DNA of 64,000 bases from positions 1-64,000 of the forward strand of contig CAJXOJ010000008.1 of assembly GCA_913057515.1 (NCBI GenBank). The letters run 5' to 3'. The notes under the pieces were generated by a model, which saw nothing but the letters and a program-made list of their open reading frames with translations, was not told the DNA's origin and searched no databases. The position numbers and the translations under genes were made by a program. This document shows, one piece after another, positions 1-2,015 of this stretch. This DNA comes from an uncultured Cycloclasticus sp. GTDB taxonomy: Bacteria; Pseudomonadota; Gammaproteobacteria; Methylococcales; Cycloclasticaceae. Position 1 is the first letter of the stretch. Every line of letters starts with the position of its first letter.

Positions 1-105
1 GCTGTTTCTGCTGTTTCTGCTGTTTCTGCTGTTTCTGCTGTTTCTGCTGTTTCTGCTGTTTCTGCTGTTTCTGCTGTTTCTGTTACTGTTTCTGTTACTG
101 TTTCT
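1..105. repeat. 9-bp tandem repeat array (GCTGTTTCT)n
   Basis: Nine perfect head-to-tail copies of GCTGTTTCT fill bases 1-81. Two 12-bp variants (GTTACTGTTTCT) follow to about 105. The array touches the window edge, so its true length is unknown. Because 9 and 12 are multiples of three, copy-number change would keep the reading frame. Read from base 2 it encodes repeating Leu-Phe-Leu. Confidence 0.95.
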
Positions 106-358
106 GTTAGCGGTAATATTTAGCTTTACAGCTGAGGGAGTTTTAATCATTGTCGCGGCCTATACAATATTAGTTATATTGGCTTTGCTGTTTGGTTTTT
201 TTAGTGGAAAAAGTACAAATTCAAGTTACGAGCAAGGCATTGAAAACAGTCGTAAAGAAATAGCTATAAACTTATTAGATACTTTGGATGATCAATCAAT
301 TGCAAATAAAACAGAATCATCAATTGATGAAGTGAAAGTACTTAGGCTAAATAACTAA
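2..358 (+). CDS. 5'-truncated membrane protein with repeat-encoded Leu/Phe segment
   Basis: An open frame runs from base 2 to the TAA at 356-358, at least 118 codons; its start lies outside the window. The 5' part is the 9-bp repeat, giving about 36 residues of only Leu and Phe (CTG TTT CTG units). A second hydrophobic stretch follows (roughly residues 37-68, including IIVAAYTILVILALLFG). The polar C-terminal tail of about 50 residues ends KVLRLNN. The non-repeat tail is ordinary coding-like sequence, which supports a real gene. The stop lies 16 bp before an attC-like site, the usual place for an integron cassette gene. I do not recognise the family. A low-complexity frame without a translated product remains possible. 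Confidence 0.5.
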   Translation: MFLLFLLFLLFLLFLLFLLFLLFLLFLLLFLLLFLLAVIFSFTAEGVLIIVAAYTILVILALLFGFFSGKSTNSSYEQGIENSRKEIAINLLDTLDDQSIANKTESSIDEVKVLRLNN

Positions 359-374
359 TACTTATGAAATACAA

Positions 375-448
375 GCCTACAAGTTACTTCAGCGGAAAAA
401 CTAATCGCTCCCGCTCGCATTTTTCCGCTGAGTAAGGCGTTATTTGCC
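375..448 (+). other. attC-like integron recombination site 1
   Basis: This is an imperfect inverted repeat just after the stop of the first ORF. Arms 384-400 and 420-435 pair over 16 bp with one unpaired base (T388) in the 5' arm, as in attC L''/L' boxes. The outer ends resemble R boxes: GCCTACAAGTTACTTCAGCGG on the left follows the layout of known attC sites, and AAGGCGTTA on the right has the G/TT crossover triplet (439/440). The total of about 74 bp fits short attC sites. Recognition is by eye; a covariance-model scan would be decisive. Confidence 0.65.
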
Positions 449-700
449 ATAGTGGTATCGCAGCTGAGCGATCATTATTGAATCTTCTAATGCTTTATAA
501 ACGAACCGATGCTCATCATTGATTCTTCGTGACCAGTAGCCTGCCATGCCATGCTTGAGTGGTTCAGGTTTCCCTATTCCTTCATAAGGAGTTCTAAAGA
601 TATCTTTAATTAGTGCGTTTACTCTTTTAAGCATCTTTTTATCGGTAGTTTGCCAATACAGATAGTCGCTCCATGCGGTAGATGAAAAAATTAGCTTCAT
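440..700 (-). CDS. yoeB: YoeB-type mRNA interferase toxin
   Basis: An 86-residue toxin of the YoeB/Txe branch of the RelE superfamily, a ribosome-dependent endoribonuclease that cuts mRNA in the A site. The E. coli YoeB active-site residues line up one for one: Glu46, Arg65, His83 and Tyr84. The motifs KPEPLKH, WSRRI and QLRYHYGK are near-identical to the family. Length matches (E. coli YoeB is 84 residues). The start overlaps the yefM stop by 4 bp, so the two are translationally coupled, antitoxin first. The stop codon TAA is formed by the first bases of the presumed integron cassette. It appears intact and presumably active when not bound by YefM. Confidence 0.95.
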   Translation of the reverse strand: MKLIFSSTAWSDYLYWQTTDKKMLKRVNALIKDIFRTPYEGIGKPEPLKHGMAGYWSRRINDEHRFVYKALEDSIMIAQLRYHYGK

Positions 701-948
701 TCAATCAGTTCTCTAGCGGAGCCTTTTCCATCTTCTAATTCGGCTATAGAGCTTAACAATCTTCTAGCATTCTCAGGTGATCGTAGCAAGTATGTTGTCT
801 CTTCCATTGCCTGATAATCTTCGAGAGACATCATGACAACCGACGGTTGAGTCTTTCTTGTAATAATAACAGGAGCATGATCATTACACACTTGCTCCAT
901 AGTTGTTGCAAGTTTAGCCCTTGCTGCTGTATAGCTTATAGCGTCCAT
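697..948 (-). CDS. yefM: YefM antitoxin of the YefM-YoeB module
   Basis: An 83-residue Phd/YefM-family antitoxin. The N-terminal DNA-binding half begins MDAISYTAARAKL; the middle carries VVMMSLEDYQAMEET; then YLLRSPENARRLLSSI and a C-terminal acidic toxin-binding tail ending ELIE. It neutralises YoeB by binding its active site and represses its own promoter with YoeB as co-repressor (family knowledge). A purine-rich ribosome site (AGAGGAA) precedes the ATG at 948. Two TGTAC(A/C) operator hexamers lie directly upstream. It is the first gene of the two-gene operon. Such modules in integron arrays are thought to stabilise the array. Confidence 0.95.
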   Translation of the reverse strand: MDAISYTAARAKLATTMEQVCNDHAPVIITRKTQPSVVMMSLEDYQAMEETTYLLRSPENARRLLSSIAELEDGKGSARELIE

Positions 949-959
949 AATTCCTCTCT

Positions 960-1007
960 GGTACAGTTAGTTGTACATAGTATAGCGGCAAATAACAAAA
1001 ACTTGAA
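960..1007 (-). promoter_or_regulatory. yefM-yoeB promoter and YefM operator
   Basis: On the minus strand a -10 box TATACT (979-984) is followed by two hexamers, TGTACA (972-977) and TGTACC (960-965), whose starts are 12 bp apart. E. coli yefM-yoeB has the same arrangement of TGTACA motifs with 12-bp spacing, bound by YefM-YoeB. A weak -35 (TTCAAG, 1002-1007) sits 17 bp from the -10, inside the attC-like site. Repression would occlude the start site. Confidence 0.7.
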
Positions 1008-1058
1008 GCTGACAAAAATAAAGAGCAGTTTTCGCCGCTTAAGTGAGTATTAACTGCC
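987..1058 (+). other. attC-like integron recombination site 2
   Basis: The outer 5' arm GGCAAATAAC is followed by ACTTGAAGC (1001-1009). This pairs with GCTTAAGT (1037-1044), leaving a single unpaired G (1005), the extrahelical base expected in an attC L'' box. The right end AGTATTAACTGCC resembles an R' box whose crossover G has become A (1049), so the site may be weakened. Length is about 72 bp, close to site 1. The GNAT frame starts 10 bp after it, as cassette genes usually do. Confidence 0.6.
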
Positions 1059-1068
1059 CAGGCAAATT

Positions 1069-1459
1069 ATGAGCGTCAAATATAAAATCAACGAACCGGT
1101 CAGTGCATATCAGTTTATTGAATTATTGAATAGCTCTACATTGGGAAAGCGTCGGCCCGTCGATGACCGAGCTTGTATTAAAGGAATGATATCAAATAGC
1201 AACCTTACTGTAAGCGCATGGTATGGTGAAAAGCTTATTGGTATTTCACGTTGTATGACTGATTTTCATTATGCGTGCTATTTGTCTGATTTAGCAGTAA
1301 GTGAAGTACACCAGAAATCTGGAGTAAGCAAAGAATTGCAAAGGCTTACGCAAAAACAGCATAGCTGCTCCAGCCGCTAACTCCTACTATGAGCACATCC
1401 GTTTCACAAACAGCGAGCGCTGCTGGCTTCTAAATCCTGATTCATGCATCAGCTCTTAG
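1069..1459 (+). pseudogene. Frameshifted GNAT N-acetyltransferase
   Basis: The frame from ATG 1069 reads as a small GNAT protein (SNLTVSAWYGEKLIGISR, then YLSDLAVSEVHQKSGVSKEL, the acetyl-CoA-binding region). After RLTQ (about 1353) it turns into unrelated residues and stops at 1378-1380. The expected C-terminal GNAT strand continues in the next frame as IAAPAANSYYEHIRF...RCWLLN, ending TAG 1457-1459. The family normally has about eight to ten residues between these parts, so a small deletion that was not a multiple of three has occurred. It looks like a decaying cassette gene: no attC is seen after it. A truncated but expressed protein cannot be excluded. Confidence 0.75.
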
Positions 1460-1487
1460 CTCATACCCAAAACCTCACGCATAAACA

Positions 1488-2015
1488 TTACAAATGCGCC
1501 TTTACTTGAACGTTAATATTCAATTCATCATCAGATAAATACATTTCGCCATCCTGAATGCTGCATTGTAGCGACATGGTTCGTTTAACCATTTCGGACA
1601 CCCCTTCCGCTTCAATATGAAACAGCGTTAGGTTTTTAAAGCGTGCTAATTTTTCGCGTTGCTGTTGCCACCAAACCGACGCTTTCCCTTGGTGATACGT
1701 ATAAATAATCACTTCTTTTGCTCGTCCACAGGCCTTTCGAATGCGTTTTTCATCCGGCTGACCCAATTCAACCCATAAATCTATCTCATCGGTCAGTGAT
1801 TTTTGCCATAACTCTGGCTCGTCATCGGTTGATAAGCCCTTGGTAAAAACAAGCCGCTCATCTGCATTTACCATAAATGCAATTAAGCGCACCATAAATC
1901 TAAAATCATTTTCCGACGGGTGCTGAGCCACGGTTAACTCATGCGTTGCATAATAATGAGCATCTATATTAGCGATATTCAAAGAAACCTTATTAATGGT
2001 TGAACTGATGGCCAT
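1488..2015 (-). CDS. yaeQ: YaeQ family protein
   Basis: A 175-residue protein of the YaeQ family (E. coli YaeQ is 181 residues), full length from ATG 2015. Family marks: the N-terminus MAISSTINKVSLNIANIDAHYY, the block FMVRLIAFMVNADERLVFTKGLS, then WVELGQPDEKRIRKACGRAK and a Lys/Trp-rich region KASVWWQQQREKL. YaeQ has a PD-(D/E)XK nuclease-like fold. Early reports tied it to haemolysin expression (RfaH suppression), but its cellular role is not settled. It is transcribed alone and marks the return to chromosomal DNA after the cassette region. It diverges from the STAS-like gene at 2170. Confidence 0.93.
   Translation of the reverse strand: MAISSTINKVSLNIANIDAHYYATHELTVAQHPSENDFRFMVRLIAFMVNADERLVFTKGLSTDDEPELWQKSLTDEIDLWVELGQPDEKRIRKACGRAKEVIIYTYHQGKASVWWQQQREKLARFKNLTLFHIEAEGVSEMVKRTMSLQCSIQDGEMYLSDDELNINVQVKAHL

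Follow-up and report, generated by a model that had tools for sequence, protein, structure and literature searches.

A decayed integron cassette array at the trhO-yaeQ locus of Cycloclasticus, probably the tail of an integrase-less satellite platform

The window analysed here, i.e. the first 64,000 nucleotides of contig C8 in the draft genome of an uncultured Cycloclasticus sp. (designated G000; 2.475 Mb, 97 contigs, 89.9% complete), opens with gene cassettes next to the chromosomal gene yaeQ, which raises the question of where these cassettes were captured and by which integrase. Integron integrases (IntI) insert cassettes by recombining attI with attC at G^TT. A typical integron carries a single attI, located close to the integrase gene (IntegronFinder 2.0, PMC9024848). 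An earlier note, made from the letters of the window alone, had described its left edge as the distal end of a cassette array and had placed an integrase gene further left.

A mobile toxin-antitoxin cassette between two attC sites

The following features were located at the start of the window, with the evidence given in parentheses:

1..439, + strand: upstream cassette truncated by the contig end, distal part with ORF 2-358 and attC (ORF list, repeat)
375..445, + strand: attC site 1, R''-L''-loop-L'-R', crossover 439/440 (fold, attC score, 11.2 bits, identity to G008)
440..1049, + strand: complete 610-bp gene cassette with yefM-yoeB (10-nt end complementarity; homologous units L063 and L064)
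440..700, - strand: yoeB toxin gene, 86 aa (PF06769, 7e-38; TIGR02116, 3.5e-34)
697..948, - strand: yefM antitoxin gene, 83 aa (PF02604, 2.5e-25; NF008499, 1.7e-32, slightly below its cut-off)
990..1055, + strand: attC site 2, worn, with R'' intact and the core ATT instead of GTT at 1049-1051 (4.3 bits; L063/L064 alignment)
1050..1458, + strand: remnant of a GNAT unit with no attC behind it (Pfam E 0.001; 69% to the intact GNAT of G008)
1459..1487, no strand: right junction between array and chromosomal DNA (homology to congeners starts at 1482 to 1525)
1488..2015, - strand: yaeQ, the chromosomal neighbour, which adjoins trhO in congeners (PF07152; synteny)

The two attC-like sites flank the toxin-antitoxin genes with the arms and spacing previously described for them, and copies of the cassette share both of its edges. 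The bases GTTATTTGCC (439-448) are the exact reverse complement of GGCAAATAAC (987-996) over 10/10 nt, as had been claimed for the crossover of site 1 and the outer arm of site 2. Since this 10-mer has only 10 copies in the 2.475-Mb genome (both strands), the probability of a chance inverted partner within about 610 bp is near 0.001 by our own arithmetic. Copies of 440-1049 with 86-87% identity were found in Paraglaciecola and Agaribacter (L063, L064); the matches start at 439/440 and stop at 1052 to 1062, the few matched bases past 1049 being a similar start of the next unit, and the flanking DNA is unrelated to that of the window. The segment therefore shows both complementarity of R'' to its first bases and the same two edges beside other neighbours, and as judged from these sequence comparisons 440-1049 is a mobile cassette bounded by attC. 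The copies elsewhere thus confirmed the boundaries at 439/440 and 1049/1050 and, with them, the distal end of a cassette array.

A noisy hand-written stem scan for attC was dropped in favour of a weight matrix and a covariance model, the latter built from 23 independent attC of arrays beside intI in congeners and other families. At default settings, a covariance-model search of the 64-kb window returned neither site; with filters off on 1.5 kb, site 1 scored 11.2 bits (E 0.046) and site 2 scored 4.3 bits, neither of them a good score. By the matrix-plus-stem score, site 1 is the top candidate in the window on both strands (37.7 vs 28.1 for the runner-up). Site 1 forms a strong hairpin (z about -3.6 vs shuffles) in which one T of the 5' arm is unpaired, and it fits the attC layout except that its R'' is one A short of the usual TAACAA. 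Site 2, with its L-box ACTT-G-AAGC / GCTTAAGT, also has the one unpaired 5'-arm base noted earlier, an extra G, but its fold is weak (z -0.4 to -1.7, not far better than shuffles), and its crossover base is A, not G (GTGAGTA^TTAACTGCC), giving an ATT core. In genome G008, the first attC of the integron shares 86% identity with site 1 across 80 bases, while the DNA on either side differs. Model scores alone would make the attC call weak; comparison of sequences with other genomes settles it, through the cassette copies with the same edges and the near-twin of site 1 in G008. It was also noticed that the A before the crossover of site 2 is present in the Agaribacter copy, where the next cassette is a different one, and that the Paraglaciecola copy has G; judging from these copies, either movement of an A^TT core or two separate changes to A could account for this. 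Searches of the window against Rfam and for tRNA genes gave no match and no tRNA, respectively.

As for the cargo, which had been called typical of cassettes, YefM and YoeB proved real by family matches, but the match of the GNAT is weak and its gene frameshifted. The yefM-yoeB genes run opposite to the array direction, and the stop and last codons of yoeB fall inside the R' box of the cassette. A yoeB stop codon in the R' box marks a whole family of YefM-YoeB cassettes (L063-L067), and in many remoter relatives the DNA similarity ends at window base 450, not 440. The best matches for YoeB-YefM in a plasmid search were only 65-71% identical. Toxin-antitoxin cassettes bring their own promoters, and their loss is costly (PMC11023631). 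With both flanking attC weakened, the cassette in the window is probably locked in place.

Edges of the array and the trhO-yaeQ locus

At the left edge, a 9-bp tandem repeat fills 1-82, and the window, like contig C8, starts inside this repeat, which codes for the hydrophobic N-terminal stretch of ORF 2-358. At the right edge, the GNAT gene (1069-1458) is frameshifted near 1355 by a small deletion, its second half being readable in another frame; no attC follows and yaeQ is next, in agreement with the decayed GNAT cassette that had been proposed as the end of the array. The closest GNAT homologue, in G008, adjoins another GNAT gene, and no attC is evident there. Homology to congeners, namely to the 3' end of their yaeQ, sets in at about 1482.

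Where yaeQ and trhO are both resolved in a congener, they are nearly always adjacent, the gap being usually 90-120 bp. Some congeners carry other inserts in this gap; none of those in G001, G006, G009, G010 and G012 looks like a cassette. The trhO of the window's genome is located on contig C71, where it is followed by a region with no homology to congeners, a gene for an AAA/OLD-type ATPase, an attC (32.8 bits), a small ORF, the start of a second attC and, at the contig end, a transposase-like reading frame. Based on synteny and orientation, we infer that C71 and C8 represent opposite ends of a single array lying between trhO and yaeQ. As the genome is a draft, it is possible that the unassembled stretch between them contains an intI gene or a rearrangement, and decay of both edges leaves the insertion point between trhO and yaeQ without a base-level position. 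With the C71 attC of 32.8 bits and the two worn sites of the window, the locus, at which no intI was seen, has the at least two attC without a neighbouring intI that define a CALIN.

Genes for REP-associated tyrosine-type transposases were observed in or beside attC at contig ends (L102:1-260 on C71; L104:5576-6068 on C32), the C32 copy being identified by family match and the C71 copy being similar by eye; these genes may be the reason for the assembly breaks at the ends of C71 and C32. A conserved inverted repeat, CTGGAACGTAAATCCAG, is situated just upstream of trhO (L102:2321-2345) and in the congeners examined, and is possibly a regulatory element. In G007, a satellite array (L123) lies at selO-yaeQ, on the other side of yaeQ, which indicates that the yaeQ neighbourhood has received arrays twice.

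The integrase gene and the dispersed attI copies

An integrase gene further left, as the earlier note had it, was not what we found: the only full-length gene for an integron integrase in this genome (433 bits, 340 aa) sits on contig C72 beside btuF, with an array of six attC; none lies upstream of the attI on C71. The adjacency of btuF and intI recurs in six other genomes of the genus.

The head of an array at metZ (G000, G017) repeats the attI region that separates intI from the first cassette on C72, and a profile search revealed that the same element of about 97 bp heads array after array, including that on C71. To avoid circularity, a model (R2) was built from seven intI-adjacent attI only; it finds the element in 18/18 genomes of the genus, and the site on C71 is homologous to attI with 70.7 bits (E 2e-19). 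There are 72 strong matches in the 18 genomes, 62 of which, hereafter satellites, have no neighbouring intI. Within 3.5 kb, an attC lies downstream in the same orientation at 30 of the 62 satellites and on the wrong side or strand at 0; against the satellite reading, 32 of the 62 have no above-threshold attC within this distance, several of which gain one under relaxed thresholds, again in the same orientation. Since the complete genomes of G007 and G014 contain 8 and 6 attI copies, respectively, with one at intI in each, an assembly artefact is excluded. By sequence comparison, the repetition of the attI homologue throughout the genus, at C71 as elsewhere, and its rules of position and orientation are clear.

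In most of the heads examined, 8-10 of 10 bases from the core G complement R'' of the first downstream attC, as insertion of cassettes at this point would require. At C71, the core is GCT and the automatic crossover match failed; the TAGGCA after the core fits R'' of the first attC (TTGCCTAAC) by eye only. No intI remnants were detected upstream of 17 satellites in the available 234 to 1500 bp, in a search that found its positive control. In a search of 301 genomes from the order, the element proved to be essentially restricted to the genus, five others giving 1-2 matches each; one of the five, G029 of another family, carries an array headed by attI on a different contig from its intI.

Several satellites occupy corresponding places in different genomes. 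That at metZ, where attI begins 3-4 bases past the metZ stop codon in G000, is present in G000, G017 and, interrupted, in G012, all of type A as defined below; a type B site lies behind metZ in G015, and no attI was seen behind metZ in seven other genomes. Further orthologous sites seem to be common to G000/G014 and to G000/G017. Cassettes are also common to satellite arrays and the main arrays of other species, as exemplified by a Fic cassette in the satellite array on C79 of G000 and in the main array of G017 (81% over 1331 bp). Between attI and attC of the C79 satellite, apparently as the first cassette, we observed a gene for a 423-aa tyrosine recombinase (L107:1959-3230) that is related to integron integrases but scores below the cut-off (118 bits vs 265). 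Inverted repeats of attI were considered as a structure; their covariation exceeded that of shuffles, but sliding the pairing by +2 scored nearly equal, and they were not relied on.

attI types and integrase clades

The integrases fall into clades A (G000, G003, G015), B (G014, G017) and C (G007, G012a), and the intI-adjacent attI form three sequence types, assigned by eye, that match these three clades. In G000, of clade A, five satellites are of type A and two, including that on C71, are of type B.

G012 has two more intI-like genes (C1:92229-93176 and 365692-366639) besides the btuF-type intI, one of them with a stop codon; the one that was compared falls in another clade. G008 has an intI of another clade that does not have this attI beside it, and satellites at C8:36344, C8:184330 and C4:311510, as if, by these sequences, an earlier integrase had been replaced.

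Origin of the trhO-yaeQ array

It is probable, from the sequences compared, that the window opens with the decayed distal end of a satellite platform between trhO and yaeQ, one that lacks an integrase, was served in trans and is now fossil-like. On C71, the platform would begin with the attI-type site of about 97 bp without an integrase gene; the first cassette would have been joined at the G of this attI, and more cassettes would follow, each closed by an attC, with the YefM-YoeB cassette (440-1049) as the last complete one and a GNAT unit that has presumably lost its attC behind it. The well-assembled genomes of the genus contain satellite attI at several places, where these head arrays of their own, and the single IntI encoded on C72, or a former one, would have filled them in trans through the usual recombination of attI with attC. 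The fossil look comes from the type B attI against the resident type A IntI and attI, the GCT crossover, the worn attC and the broken GNAT; the trhO-yaeQ platform might thus date back to an integrase type that preceded the present one. The GCT core and the failed automatic match at C71, and the lack of a strong attC in the window, also count against the platform as described. We infer from the arrangement that the satellites are acted on in trans by IntI and that a mismatch of types means inactivity; it suggests a single integrase that provides, or in the past provided, for many sites of cassette capture. For the genus as a whole, we lean, with somewhat less assurance, towards a rule of one integrase and many attI, by which dispersed attI would found arrays, IntI would fill them in trans, and satellites would outlive the replacement of the integrase type.

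Three other origins were weighed. The array could be an ordinary CALIN, in which a complete integron at trhO-yaeQ lost intI and left attI over, the other clusters having arisen likewise. CALIN are generally regarded as integrons that have degraded (PMC9024848), and the array in the window is visibly decayed, but the 17 satellites with no intI remnant in the available upstream DNA would demand many clean losses of intI, and the placement of attI almost directly after the metZ stop codon in G000, the presence in a single genome of several intact satellites whose first-cassette junctions look fresh and the same arrangement in 18/18 genomes fit such losses poorly; we regard this origin as unlikely.

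Insertion of single cassettes by IntI into an attG-type site between trhO and yaeQ, followed by growth of the array, would draw on an established activity of the enzyme (Loot et al. 2024, doi 10.1038/s41564-023-01548-y, as reported in PMC12901181 and PMC12444791); the head of the array carries, however, a complete homologue of attI, about 97 bp long, and not the short attG consensus, making this course very improbable. Marginally less credible again is that C8 represents the far end of the main integron on C72, moved to yaeQ by a rearrangement, with C71 belonging to another array. C72 ends and C8 begins inside a cassette, and the orientation would fit, but trhO and yaeQ are adjacent in nearly all congeners, and on C71 the array DNA of this very gap sets in right beside trhO. 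The satellite platform served in trans is therefore the origin that we prefer.

Implications and comparison with known systems

CALIN are widespread and are in most cases put down to integron degradation or to off-target insertion. The satellites offer a third, testable explanation, namely that the cassette-entry site itself is copied over the chromosome. If IntI serves satellites in trans, cassettes would be stored and expressed at many places, with a first-position slot at each, and the definition of one integron would change. The match between attI types and IntI clades, together with mismatched satellites in the same genomes, would record past replacement of the integrase and would offer natural substrates for studying IntI-attI specificity. 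No description of dispersed attI was found in the literature searched, which comprised mostly sources other than subscription journals.

The arrangement resembles a sedentary chromosomal integron in 1) its attC-bounded cassettes, 2) its toxin-antitoxin and GNAT cargo, 3) the G^TT crossover of most satellites, and 4) the attI at the array head, but differs in that no intI was seen at this locus and that many attI per genome go with one resident intI. With CALIN it shares the cluster of attC without a neighbouring intI, the intI being elsewhere in the genome; however, the clusters of this genus are headed by an attI homologue, whereas CALIN are usually described without attI, as degraded integrons. 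CALIN away from the canonical locus occur in about half of Xanthomonas genomes, and a functional IntI can mobilise CALIN in trans (PMC12444791). Cassettes located away from the integron are also produced by the off-site insertion into attG of Loot et al. 2024, as far as it is summarised in the papers citing it, in which a short consensus is the target, in contrast to the true attI homologue at the insertion point here. Finally, the Delta-attI gene cassettes of mobile integrons (PMC12901181) likewise place extra, partial attI copies beside cassettes, but there the attI-derived sites lie within single resistance cassettes, whereas here whole attI head chromosomal arrays.
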